From Tardiphaga alba (GTDB lineage: Bacteria > Pseudomonadota > Alphaproteobacteria > Rhizobiales > Xanthobacteraceae), in contig NZ_CP036498.1 of the NCBI RefSeq assembly GCF_018279705.1, forward strand, positions 5,225,001 to 5,289,000: DNA of 64,000 nt. Direction: 5' to 3'. The first letter of the stretch is position 1; the number at the start of each line of letters is the position of its first letter. A program made the position numbers and the translations under genes. Positions 2,402 to 42,809 of this stretch are shown one piece after another. Below the pieces are notes generated by a model. The model worked only from the letters and a program-made list of their open reading frames with translations, ran no database searches and was not told where the DNA came from.

Positions 2402-3288
2402 ATGACCCAGTTTCACGGTGAGCTGTCGCCTCCCTTCGAGATCGTCGAGCCGGCCGACTGGCGCGCGCCGATCATTTTCAATTCCCCGCATTCCGGCACC
2501 GTCTATCCCGCCGAATTCCTCGCCGCGTCGCGAATCGACGTGACGGCGCTGCGTCGTTCGGAAGATTCCTTCATGGACGAGCTGATCGGCCACCTCAGCC
2601 AGCGCGGCTTCCCGGTGGTGAAGGTGCATTTCCCGCGCTCCTATGTGGATGTGAATCGCGAGCCCTATGAGCTCGACCCCGGATGTTCACCGGCCGGCTG
2701 CCGAGCTTTGCCAATACGCGCTCGATGCGGGTGGCGGGCGGCCTCGGCACCATCCCGCGCGTGGTCGGCGACGGCCAGGAGATCTATCGCGAGCGCCTCG
2801 ATGTGGATGCCGCGCTAACGCGGATCGAATCGCTCTACAAGCCGTATCACCGCGCTTTGCGCCGCCTGATCAACAAGGCGCACCAGACCTTCGGCACCGT
2901 CATCCTGGTCGATTGTCATTCGATGCCGTCGATCGGGATCGCCCGCGAAGAACCGCGCCGGCCCGATCTGGTGGTCGGCGATCGCTACGGCACCAGTTGC
3001 GCCGGCCTGCTGACGGATGTGGTGGAGGACACCTATTACAAGCTCGGCTACACGATCGGCCGCAACAAGCCCTATGCCGGCGGGTTCATCACCGAGCATT
3101 ACGGCAACCCGGCCAGCGGCCTGCACGCGATCCAGATCGAACTCAACCGCGCGATCTATATGGACGAGCGCAAACGCGAGCGGACCGCCCGCTTCGACCA
3201 GATCGCGGCAGATTTCTCGACTTTGGCCGATGCGCTCACCCGTATCCCCTTGAATCTGCTGGGCCCGTTCCAGGCGGCCGCGGAATAG
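2402..3288 (+). pseudogene. N-formylglutamate amidohydrolase family protein, interrupted by a one-base frameshift (probably a sequencing error)
   Basis: The first segment begins MTQFHGELSPPFEIVEP and contains the family hallmark FNSPHSGTVYP, then SYVDVNREPYELDP; the reading frame then breaks at 2677-2682 (GACCCCGGATG). The second segment, MFTGRLPSFANTRSMRVAGG through VDCHSMPSIG and GGFITEHYGNPASGLHAIQIE to a stop at 3288, completes a normal family member of about 295 residues. Adding one base to the C run gives ELDPRMFTGRLPS, exactly the expected sequence. The family hydrolyses N-formyl-L-glutamate to formate and glutamate in histidine degradation, although no hut genes are nearby. Either the gene is broken or, more likely, one base is missing from the assembly; four other plus-strand genes here show the same defect. 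Confidence 0.85.
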
Positions 3289-3443: not shown

Positions 3444-3608
3444 ATGAAGAGCATGATCAAGAAGTTCTGGGCGAACGAGTCCGGCGCAACGGCCATTGAA
3501 TACGGCCTGATCGCCGCCGGTATCTCGCTCGCGATCATCGCAGTGGTGAACGGTCTCGGCACGACGCTCAACACCAAGTTCGGCGACATCAACACGTCGT
3601 TGAAGTAA
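3444..3608 (+). CDS. Flp/Fap family type IVb pilin
   Basis: 54 residues: a short basic leader (MKSMIKKFWANESG) followed by ATAIEYGLIAAGISLAIIAV. The G-A-T-A-I-E-Y-G-L-I-A run is the Flp pilin signature, with prepilin peptidase cleavage after the Gly and the Glu at +5 required for assembly. The remainder (NGLGTTLNTKFGDINTSLK) is the usual short C-terminus. A GGGGAA ribosome binding site lies at about 3433-3438. Flp pilins form adhesive tad pili exported by the CpaA-F/TadABC machinery. None of those genes is in the window, so this is an orphan pilin gene, common in Bradyrhizobiaceae. Confidence 0.93.
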   Translation: MKSMIKKFWANESGATAIEYGLIAAGISLAIIAVVNGLGTTLNTKFGDINTSLK

Positions 3609-3797
3609 GATCCGGTCGAAGTCAGACCGATAAGCGACCGGTTGAGGTTCTCAGCCGAAAAGGTCTCGTCTCTCCAGACGCCTCATACGCATCGATGCCC
3701 GGCTGTCGGCATCCGCAAAGAGGGTGAAGCAGCATCACGCTTCCAGACTGCCGGTCGATCAAGCGAACGGCTTTCCCTGCAAAACTCCATAGACAAG

Positions 3798-3829
3798 AAA
3801 AAAGGGCCGCCTGCGAAAGCAAGCGGCCC
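3798..3829 (-). terminator. Rho-independent terminator of the small RNA candidate
   Basis: Minus-strand GGGCCGC/GCGGCCC arms extended by a U-G wobble and UGC/GCA around a UUUC loop, followed directly by six U (plus-strand A run at 3798-3803). The A-tract is only on one side, so it works only on the minus strand. Confidence 0.85.
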
Positions 3830-3885
3830 AAGTCTAGGGAGGAAACGCCCAAGGAGGGCAGCGATAGCGCCAGGCGCTACCGCAC
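3798..3885 (-). ncRNA. Putative trans-acting small RNA with anti-Shine-Dalgarno CCUCC motifs
   Basis: On the minus strand a sigma-70-like promoter (3892-3920) predicts a transcript start near 3885 and a strong terminator ends it at about 3798, giving ~88 nt. Stem-loop 1 (3861-3883) pairs GCGGUAGCGC with GCGCUAUCGC around a CUG loop. Stem-loop 2 (3847-3859) is GCCC-UCCUU-GGGC. A single-stranded linker (3830-3846) reads GUUUCCUCCCUAGACUU. The terminator stem follows (3804-3829) with six U. Exposed CCUCC/UCCUU motifs opposite ribosome binding sites are a hallmark of alphaproteobacterial small RNAs of the alpha-r / CcsR kind, which are often stress-induced and bind mRNA leaders. The family assignment is inference; the promoter, stem-loops and terminator are seen directly. 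Confidence 0.72.
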
Positions 3886-3891
3886 CGCAAC

Positions 3892-3920
3892 AATATGCAT
3901 CTGCAGCACCTGAAGTGCAA
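3892..3920 (-). promoter_or_regulatory. Sigma-70-like promoter for the small RNA candidate
   Basis: Minus strand: -35 TTGCAC (3915-3920), 17-base spacer, -10 CATATT (3892-3897). Predicted start about 3885, just ahead of the first stem-loop. Confidence 0.6.
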
Positions 3921-4261
3921 GGTTTTTCGGGCGAAAACCCATGCAAAATTTGCAAGGCATTTTGGTCAACTCGACATGCCTGTCATATTAAAACCACTTG
4001 AAAACAATGACTTAAGGAACAACATGTCATCTGGCCAGGTAAATAGAAGTGATTAGACATTCACTTCTATAGCCAAATTCCAGTTCTTGCGCTCATCCAT
4101 CTCCGGAAACCAGAACTGCGCAGACTGCTAAAAATAAGATGCGCATAGTGCGCAAAAATCGACAGCGGTGGGCAATTGCGACGGCATCATAGGCAGGCCA
4201 CGGCAAGCCGCGATATAGGTTGGCGAACAGCCCATATCTGCCGCTGCAAAAGGATTCTGCC

Positions 4262-5248: not shown

Positions 5249-6139
5249 TCAGCGCGCCGCCGCGCGCAGATGCGCGATCAACTGCTGCGCCGGGCGCGAG
5301 ATCGTTGCGAGATCGCGAAAGCAGATCGCCAGTTTGCGGTTGGCCCAGGGATCCCTGATTTTCACCAGCGAAATCGCCATCGACCGCGCACAGCGCCGCG
5401 CCGCCACTTCCGGCACCACCGCGATGCCGACCTGGGCGGCGGCCATCTGGCACATGGCATCGAAATCGCGCATCTGCGCGCGAAACCGCAGCCGCTTTCC
5501 CATCCTTGCGGCGTATTTGCCGATGTGGTTCTGCAGCGCCGTGGCGTTGGTGAGGCCGATGAAATCGCGATCAGCGACCTCGTTGAAATCGACGTGGCGG
5601 TGATGCGCGAGATCGCTGCGCGGGGCCGTCACCAGCACCAGCCGGTCTTCACTGAAGATGAAGCGATCGAGACTGTCGGGCAGCGTATGTTCGGCCGCAA
5701 AGCCGAGATCGGCGGTGCCGCCGGCAATGGCCTGGGCGATATCGGCGCTTTCGCGTTCCTCCACATCGAGGCTGACCTGCGGATGCTCGCGCAAAAAGGC
5801 CGCCAGCGCTTTCGGCAGATGCTCGGACAGGCCCACCGTATTCGCCAGCATGGCAATGCTGGCTTTGCTGCCGCTGGCATAGGCGGTCATCTCGCTGCGC
5901 AGCGTTTCGACGTCATGCAGCACCAGCCGGGCATGGCCGAGCAGGCTCTCGCCCGCTGCCGTCAGCGTCACGCCGCGCCGCCCGCGCTTCAGCAGCGCCA
6001 CCCCGACGGCTGCTTCCAGCCCCTGAATGCGCGCGCTCGCCGAGGCCAGCGCGAGATGCGCGGCCGCGGCACCGCCGGTAATGCTGCGCGCTTCCGCCAC
6101 CGCCACGAACAGCCTGAGATCGACCAGATCGAAATGCAT
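5249..6139 (-). CDS. LysR-family transcriptional regulator
   Basis: 296 residues. The N-terminal winged helix-turn-helix (residues ~3-60, FDLVDLRLFVAVAEARSITGGAAAAHLALASASARIQGLE) is standard, including the GVALLKRGRRGVTLTAAGE wing. A type 2 periplasmic-binding-like effector domain follows (SIAMLANTVGLSEHLPKAL to the C-terminus). It diverges from a TauE/SafE permease 76 bases away, and LysR proteins commonly control the gene opposite, so regulation of that exporter is a reasonable inference. A 21-bp perfect dyad sits 12 bases upstream of its start codon and could be its operator. The effector is unknown. Confidence 0.9.
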   Translation of the reverse strand: MHFDLVDLRLFVAVAEARSITGGAAAAHLALASASARIQGLEAAVGVALLKRGRRGVTLTAAGESLLGHARLVLHDVETLRSEMTAYASGSKASIAMLANTVGLSEHLPKALAAFLREHPQVSLDVEERESADIAQAIAGGTADLGFAAEHTLPDSLDRFIFSEDRLVLVTAPRSDLAHHRHVDFNEVADRDFIGLTNATALQNHIGKYAARMGKRLRFRAQMRDFDAMCQMAAAQVGIAVVPEVAARRCARSMAISLVKIRDPWANRKLAICFRDLATISRPAQQLIAHLRAAAR

Positions 6140-11990: not shown

Positions 11991-16748
<4,758 letters not shown>

Positions 16749-41666: not shown

Positions 41667-42809
41667 ATGACCGAACGTATCCAGGAATTCCTCCGCGCCC
41701 GCCGCAGCGAAGGTCTCGATACCGAGCCGTGCCTGGTCGTCGATCTCGACGTCGTGCGCGACAACTTCCAGACTTTTGCGAAGGCGCTGCCGGACTCCCG
41801 CGTGTTCTACGCAGTGAAGGCCAACCCGGCACCGGAAGTGCTGTCCCTGCTCGCATCGATGGGCTCGTGCTTCGACTGCGCGACTGTCGCCGAAATCGAA
41901 ATGGCGCTCGCCGCTGGCGCCACGCCGGACCGCATCTCCTATGGCAACACCATCAAGAAGGAGCGCGACATCGCGCGCGCCTTCACGCTGGGTATCCGCA
42001 TGTTCGCCGTCGACTGCGCGCCGGAAGTCGAGAAGGTCGCGCGCGTCGCGCCGGGCGCAAAGGTGTTCTGCCGCATCCTCTATGATTGCGCCGGCGCCGA
42101 GTGGCCGCTGTCGCGCAAATTCGGCTGCGATCCGGAAATGGCCGTCGACGTGCTCGATCTCGCCAAGCGCCTTGGCCTCGAGCCGGTCGGCATCTCGTTC
42201 CATGTCGGCTCGCAGCAGCGCAAGGTGAAGGCGTGGGACCGCGCGCTGGCGATGGCATCGTCGGTGTTCCGCGACTGCGCCGAGCGCGGCATCAACCTCA
42301 CCCTCGTCAATATGGGTGGCGGCTTCCCGACCAAGTATCTGAAGGACGTGCCGCCCGTGCTGCAATACGGACGCTCGATCTTCCGTGCGCTGCGTAAGCA
42401 TTTCGGCAACGCGATTCCGGAAACGATCATCGAGCCGGGCCGCGGCATGGTGGGTAACGCCGGCATCATCGAGACCGAGGTCGTGCTGATCTCGAAGAAG
42501 AGCGACGAGGACGACAATCGCTGGGTCTATCTCGACATCGGCAAGTTCGGCGGTCTCGCCGAGACGATGGACGAGTCGATCCGCTACGCGATCCGCACCC
42601 GTCATGACGGCGCGGAGATGGCGCCCTGCGTGCTCGCCGGCCCGACCTGCGATTCGGCCGACGTGCTGTATGAGAAGGCGCCGTATCCGCTGCCCGTCAC
42701 GCTGGAGATCGGCGACAAGCTGCTGATCGAAGGCACGGGCGCATATACCTCGACCTATTCGGCGGTTGCCTTCAACGGCATCCCGCCGCTGCGGACGTAT
42801 CATATTTAG
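41667..42809 (+). CDS. Ornithine/lysine decarboxylase (fold III PLP, eukaryotic type)
   Basis: 380 residues. The PLP lysine is Lys51 in FYAVKANPAPEV. The alanine racemase-like barrel (ISFHVGSQQRKVKAWDRALA, NMGGGFPTKY, IEPGRGMVGNAG) and the C-terminal C-D-S-A-D-V motif (ACVLAGPTCDSADVLYEKAP), whose Cys protonates the substrate in ornithine decarboxylases, are complete. It makes putrescine from ornithine (or cadaverine from lysine). A GNAT, a RidA and homospermidine synthase follow, so the cluster converts ornithine to homospermidine. The long upstream leader suggests control of expression by a polyamine-related signal. Confidence 0.93.
   Translation: MTERIQEFLRARRSEGLDTEPCLVVDLDVVRDNFQTFAKALPDSRVFYAVKANPAPEVLSLLASMGSCFDCATVAEIEMALAAGATPDRISYGNTIKKERDIARAFTLGIRMFAVDCAPEVEKVARVAPGAKVFCRILYDCAGAEWPLSRKFGCDPEMAVDVLDLAKRLGLEPVGISFHVGSQQRKVKAWDRALAMASSVFRDCAERGINLTLVNMGGGFPTKYLKDVPPVLQYGRSIFRALRKHFGNAIPETIIEPGRGMVGNAGIIETEVVLISKKSDEDDNRWVYLDIGKFGGLAETMDESIRYAIRTRHDGAEMAPCVLAGPTCDSADVLYEKAPYPLPVTLEIGDKLLIEGTGAYTSTYSAVAFNGIPPLRTYHI

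Follow-up and report, generated by a model that had tools for sequence, protein, structure and literature searches.

The Rfam family RF00519, called suhB, bears the title 'Makes More Granules Regulator RNA (mmgR)', is known in the literature as alphaR8 and owes its Rfam name to the neighbouring suhB gene. The alphaR8 RNAs are characterized by a Rho-independent terminator and a single-stranded 10-mer, 5'-UUUCCUCCCU-3', placed below a weak hairpin, and in most species one copy adjoins a putative N-formylglutamate amidohydrolase (FGase) gene (PMC12559287). For the Caulobacter crescentus member SisA, pairing of the 10-mer with an mRNA 5' UTR was demonstrated with compensatory mutations, using E. 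coli cells making Caulobacter Hfq; SisA repressed eight of ten reporters, its targets include many transporters and metabolic factors, and upon carbon starvation it is removed by the sponge CrfA (PMC12559287). MmgR, its counterpart in S. meliloti, depends on Hfq and negatively regulates PHB accumulation; AniA/PhaR represses it and NtrC activates it (PMC8401924, PMC7143759). PhaR of this species binds palindromes with the core YGCRNYGCR, and its site at mmgR, situated between the -35 and -10 boxes, contains TGCACCGCA and was rated 'Efficient' for PhaR binding in vitro (PMC12542648, Table 3). The PhaR consensus given for Bradyrhizobium diazoefficiens is TGCRNYGCASMA (PMC6201568).

We analysed a window of 64,000 nucleotides from the genome of Tardiphaga alba (contig NZ_CP036498.1, positions 5,225,001 to 5,289,000), for which an earlier note made from the sequence alone had described a complete small RNA (sRNA) gene on the minus strand. 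All the elements described were located (Table 1), and the observation of an sRNA gene was confirmed by a family match, a stable fold, conservation and covariation, whereas its interpretation in the earlier note was only partly supported. The Rfam covariance search, a check proposed in that note, returned RF00519 over its full length (3866-3789, model positions 1-77 of 77) with 72.7 bits against a cut-off of 41 (E 4.4e-13). Together with this gathering score, the window gene has the other traits of the family, namely the unpaired 10-mer, the Rho-independent terminator and the linkage to FGase. The linker previously read as an anti-Shine-Dalgarno motif is identical to the family 10-mer, in agreement with that reading. 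The folding energy of 3885-3798 was -49.5 kcal/mol as compared with a shuffled mean of -31.5, and none of 200 shuffled sequences folded as well (z -6.09). A search of 3798-4260 for inverted repeats found no pairs, and was uninformative in that its settings also missed the stems known there.

Table 1. Features of the sRNA locus and its neighbourhood (positions in the window).
Feature	Position	Strand	Basis
FGase gene (PF05013), two pieces in two frames	2402..3288	+	Pfam match
Flp pilin gene (PF04964)	3444..3608	+	Pfam match
alphaR8/MmgR-type sRNA gene, predicted transcript of ~88 nt	3798..3885	-	RF00519 match and fold; 5' end predicted
Rho-independent terminator, 11-bp stem (3829-3804) and six U (3803-3798)	3798..3829	-	Listed by scan tool
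Single-stranded 10-mer UUUCCUCCCU, anti-Shine-Dalgarno seed	3836..3845	-	Unpaired in predicted fold; same as family 10-mer
Second hairpin, weak, with UCCUU loop (3855-3851)	3846..3860	-	Rfam match and predicted fold
5' hairpin	3861..3883	-	Predicted fold; mostly upstream of Rfam model
Candidate PhaR/AniA operator core YGCRNYGCR, TGCGGTGCG (plus strand CGCACCGCA)	3881..3889	-	Motif match
Putative promoter, TTGCAC (3920-3915), 17-nt spacer, CATATT (3897-3892)	3892..3920	-	Weak consensus match
Inositol-monophosphatase (IMPase) family gene of hisN/suhB type (PF00459), with uncertain start codon	4220..5044	+	Pfam match

The claim that gene order would not have predicted an sRNA at this place turned out to be wrong, since FGase, which lies beside the gene with the Flp pilin gene in between, is the usual neighbour of alphaR8. 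Among the 31 loci with the exact core retrieved by the model search, FGase was present within the retrieved stretch in 28, the IMPase gene in 20 and the Flp pilin gene in 17; locus L014, which has no exact core, was left out of these counts and of the count of 34 given below for the PhaR core, and kept in the count of 35 for the same core. The window gene is an ordinary alphaR8 member: its sRNA family is known, and a good prediction can be made of its regulation. The FGase gene of the window is split by a frameshift and intact in a Tardiphaga relative, pointing to either a sequencing error or a recent pseudogene. One of the loci examined, titled Frankia sp. RB7 (L091, JAUEPE010000016.1), is a Bradyrhizobium-type alphaR8 locus, and that label is probably wrong. 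Elsewhere in the window, a match to the ar45 sRNA with long unaligned stretches (RF02347, 41181-41443, plus strand) directly precedes a speF leader match (RF00518, 41452-41609, plus strand), downstream of which a reading frame at 41669 presumably encodes an ornithine-decarboxylase-type protein.

We searched with the Rfam model 41 genomes (that of T. alba, 17 of the genus and 23 of the family or order), 36 of which had RF00519 matches, above the cut-off in 32. Over the window locus and 17 more from the genus (18 in total), identity to the window reached 0.91-1.00 in the three bins spanning 3887-3828 and 0.75-0.84 across the terminator, with 0.78 in the bin that holds the -10 region; in the bins below 3788 it was only 0.24-0.49. 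Conservation tracks the RNA elements, with loop lengths varying between copies. The earlier note had also suggested looking for compensatory stem changes in relatives, and these were found: in an alignment of 34 copies (32 of them distinct), two-sided changes occurred at 13 of 26 pairs compared with a shuffle mean of 6.3, a mean that related sequences may exceed. They affected four of the nine outer pairs of the 5' hairpin and seven of the nine pairs of the terminator main stem (32 distinct sequences). Standard pairs occupied 93.7% of cells in the same copies and fell to at most 54.6% when pairing partners were slid, a control that favours the structure used as it was derived from the window sequence. 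Because of this derivation and of the relatedness of the sequences, we take the covariation as support and not as proof. The 10-mer was invariant across the alignment, the rows of which were picked by a pattern that contains it.

The promoter proposed in the earlier note stood in part: the TTGCAC-17-CATATT arrangement is present and recurs in relatives, but it matches the sigma-70 consensus only weakly and is missing from the output of a promoter scan. TTGC and CATATTG were found at the same spacing in Tardiphaga and Bradyrhizobium loci, some of which had been fetched with a pattern containing CATATTG. The interval 3780-4260 has a single YGCRNYGCR core, which overlaps the predicted start and lies immediately downstream of the -10 hexamer. 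This PhaR core was found in 30 of 35 model-found copies when counted between -60 and -25 relative to CGTTTCC, for an expectation of ~0.05 per copy from the base rate of the loci themselves, and in 29 of 34 copies by a stricter pattern, compared with ~5% by chance. The five of the 35 copies without it were L002, one of the two copies of L012, both of L022, and L031; the match in L003, which has phage-type surroundings, consists of a GC-rich string and could be fortuitous. A second core located 20-21 bp further upstream occurs in 17 of the 35 copies and is not intact in the window strain; its position is closer than that of the window core to the PhaR site of S. meliloti. All 118 matches listed in a contig scan also had the core, which is not evidence since the scan pattern contained it. 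The T. alba genome encodes a protein with a PhaR DNA-binding domain (PF07879, E 4.5e-30) and, with both the operator-like core and the PhaR-type gene found in the genome, control of the window sRNA by PhaR/AniA is most likely, as in S. meliloti.

The overlap between this core and the outer part of the 5' inverted repeat leaves room for a different reading of the region, in which the transcript starts within or after the repeat, as in the 77-nt RNA of S. meliloti, and the repeat is a DNA operator. The 77-position Rfam model does begin at 3866, inside the repeat. However, G-C/A-U exchanges in the repeat keep the pairing, something that a protein-binding palindrome does not need, a stable stem is predicted at the same place in nearly all 34 copies in spite of their varying sequences, and CATATT lies 7 nt upstream of 3885, a position that fits a start before the repeat. 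We therefore consider the operator-only repeat unlikely and retain a predicted transcript that includes the 5' hairpin. Much less probable still is that the window RNA is an AbcR (alpha-r15) sRNA, with two CU-rich anti-Shine-Dalgarno motifs and three stems; alpha-r15 RNAs are partly similar to suhB and alike in general layout (PMC7143759), but Rfam, keeping only the best overlapping match per clan, reports RF00519 here, and the 10-mer, like the linkage to FGase, is a trait of alphaR8. It is just as improbable that the interval holds a small protein gene or chance stems, given that, although mechanically called open reading frames (ORFs) overlap 3798..3885, the single one scanned (3642-4001, plus strand) had no Pfam match, conservation follows RNA elements with variable loops, and the fold beats all 200 shuffles.

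With family membership, structure, conservation, FGase linkage, an operator-like core and a PhaR-type gene all found directly, we consider it very probable that the chromosomal alphaR8 of this Tardiphaga strain is a trans-acting sRNA, bound by Hfq, that represses mRNAs through its 10-mer and has a PhaR-controlled promoter. By analogy with its relatives, its transcription, Hfq binding, target pairing and control by PhaR are most likely. The sRNA would be transcribed from its own promoter, end at the intrinsic terminator and bind Hfq, and UUUCCUCCCU would pair with the ribosome-binding sites of mRNAs, leading to their repression. PhaR/AniA would repress the sRNA promoter until PHB granules draw PhaR away; this release would tie the sRNA to carbon storage. 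The window gene would in this manner bring Tardiphaga into the range of a regulator already known for its part in carbon storage and nutrient uptake, and from the operator one could predict the conditions under which the sRNA is on. In two Bradyrhizobium transcriptome papers (PMC4842269, PMC5082802), the word 'suhB' is absent from the main text.

When the T. alba genome was searched for sequences complementary to the whole 10-mer directly ahead of an ATG, no site was obtained, and a 9-base complement yielded three (none for the reversed pattern), which suggests that strong targets are few or less perfectly paired. The three sites adjoin genes for a cupin-domain protein, an MFS transporter and a glutathione S-transferase; these candidate targets, for which duplex energies were computed, serve as leads only. 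Across the 18 genomes of the genus, the 9-base pattern likewise had few sites per genome.

The T. alba genome contains three alphaR8 copies with an identical 24-base core in common. The second copy (L002) is flanked on one side by a NusG-like antiterminator gene (phrog_6386, E 8.4e-20) and on the other by genes for HNH and the large terminase subunit; close to the third (L003) are a gene of the phage-repressor type (phrog_4, E 8.7e-13) and one of the GcrA type. Of 18 stretches around other copies (two from this genome and 16 from relatives), 13 had a recognisable core, and among 26 ORFs flanking the copies in those stretches four matched phrog_6386, two phrog_15 and two phrog_9, the last two both being terminase families. 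L003 has in common with copies in relatives (L373, L374, L375 and L381) an upstream sequence ending in GCCAGCCC, which sets this group apart from the antiterminator-HNH type as a second type. In three loci of the same family or order (L012, L018 and L022), two alphaR8 copies are found a few hundred bases apart.

Since L002 and L003 lie among phage-type genes, we examined viral contigs for alphaR8. The exact 22-mer core was present in 85 stretches of viral contigs, those from IMG/VR being predicted viruses. In addition, blastn matched three phage records with 41-64% of the query covered. Two of them are Bradyrhizobium phages (OP596613, the phage of the Bradyrhizobium elkanii USDA 76 lysogen, and OP596612). 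In both, the match is unannotated and lies within a gap (15710-16144 in OP596613) that is directly followed, on the same strand, by genes for HNH, terminase, portal and capsid proteins. The match in the third record shares part of its length with a hypothetical gene. Within the retrieved stretches, FGase and IMPase genes were found at none of the 87 viral loci with the core, and we set aside contamination of the viral contigs by host flanks on this basis. The PhaR core was seen in one of 84 viral loci of a first set and, among the matches listed, in 10 of 87 of a second, so that the pooled 11 of 171 are near the chance rate. Inspection by eye of the phage copies gave no defensible promoter. 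The core also occurs in a record named as a Microcystis phage (L243, PP395640.1, locus 6001-6036); the family is alphaproteobacterial and the host label may be wrong.

The genes around the viral copies were classified through their longest ORFs on the same strand, which among 86 viral loci were available upstream for 70 (at least 100 codons within 1.8 kb) and downstream also for 70 (at least 150 codons within 4.2 kb). The upstream ORF belonged to the antiterminator family phrog_6386 in 29 of 70 cases and matched Pfam NusG in 18 of 70. Among control ORFs taken from displaced stretches of these loci, phrog_6386 was absent from the 25 families listed, the last of which had one member, and hence accounted for at most one of 69. 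Downstream, the terminase-large-subunit family phrog_9 was found in 20 of 70 and other terminase families in some of the remaining loci. Queries with proteins of OP596613, OP596612 and L002 gave a typical spacing of the antiterminator at about -1000 to -180, the sRNA, HNH from about +20 onward, the small terminase subunit at +400, the large one at +900 and the portal at +2.7 kb, and matched HNH in 27, the large subunit in 20 and the NusG-like protein in 18 of 88 loci (L002 included). A region of OP596613.1 (15032-15709) is annotated as an ABC transporter substrate-binding protein; its homologues ahead of the sRNA copies in phages were matched by the query for the NusG-like antiterminator. The succession of antiterminator, sRNA and late genes is common but not general, many loci having other or unclassified neighbours.

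Restricting the scan pattern to the 5' part of the core brought in at least 88 new viral loci, from which those with the complete 22-mer had already been removed by the first scan. CTCCCT, the rest of the 10-mer, continued the core in 68 of the 88 and, in a pooled set biased upward by the 22-mer scan, in 117 of 137 distinct copies, both among the matches listed. NusG-like genes adjoined 16 and large terminase subunit genes nine of these 88 new loci, again among the matches listed.

Whereas the window gene represents a known family in its usual place, these phage siblings are the less ordinary point and deserve a second look. In the pR' region of lambdoid phages, an antiterminator gene is followed by a leader RNA with a terminator and then by the late genes, and the terminated late leader StxS is a regulatory sRNA (PMC12101431, PMC8065619) that pairs with a ribosome-binding site (PMC12101431). 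We tentatively propose, as a possible rather than a probable reading, that temperate phages of Alphaproteobacteria carry the host core sRNA alphaR8 as a late-operon leader RNA. We infer transcription, termination and antitermination of the phage copies as follows. Located after a NusG-like antiterminator gene and before HNH and terminase genes, the phage alphaR8, without PhaR operator and mostly with the 10-mer, would in the lysogen give a terminated leader acting in trans on the alphaR8 targets or the sponge of the host; upon induction, the leader transcript would be extended by antitermination and become the late mRNA. The two extra copies of T. alba (L002 and L003) would be phage siblings of this kind. 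If true, phages would have recruited a host core sRNA as late leader, prophages would gain a standing hold on host carbon metabolism, and the variation in alphaR8 copy number between genomes would be explained in part. A limited literature search found no report of phage-borne alphaR8, an earlier account in the family-evolution literature being possible; the term 'prophage' is absent from the available text of PMC12559287, PMC7143759 and PMC8401924, where 'phage' appears in other senses only.

Compared with known systems, the phage alphaR8 copies are similar to StxS of lambdoid phages in their place between antiterminator and late genes and in their predicted end at a terminator; in contrast with it, they resemble a host sRNA and adjoin a NusG-like gene instead of Q, and we claim no sequence relation between the two. 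SisA-D of Caulobacter crescentus share with the T. alba genome the 10-mer, the linkage of sisA to FGase and the presence of several copies per genome, but, unlike the T. alba siblings found among phage-type genes, the Sis siblings are not described as phage-borne in the available part of their published account. The closest likeness of the window gene to MmgR of S. meliloti lies in the Rfam family, the 10-mer, the terminator and a PhaR core at the promoter. The two differ in length, with a window RNA predicted at ~88 nt, including a conserved 5' hairpin, as opposed to 77 nt for MmgR, in the position of the PhaR core, downstream of the -10 in the window and between -35 and -10 in S. meliloti, and in copy number, with three alphaR8 copies in T. 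alba versus one in S. meliloti.
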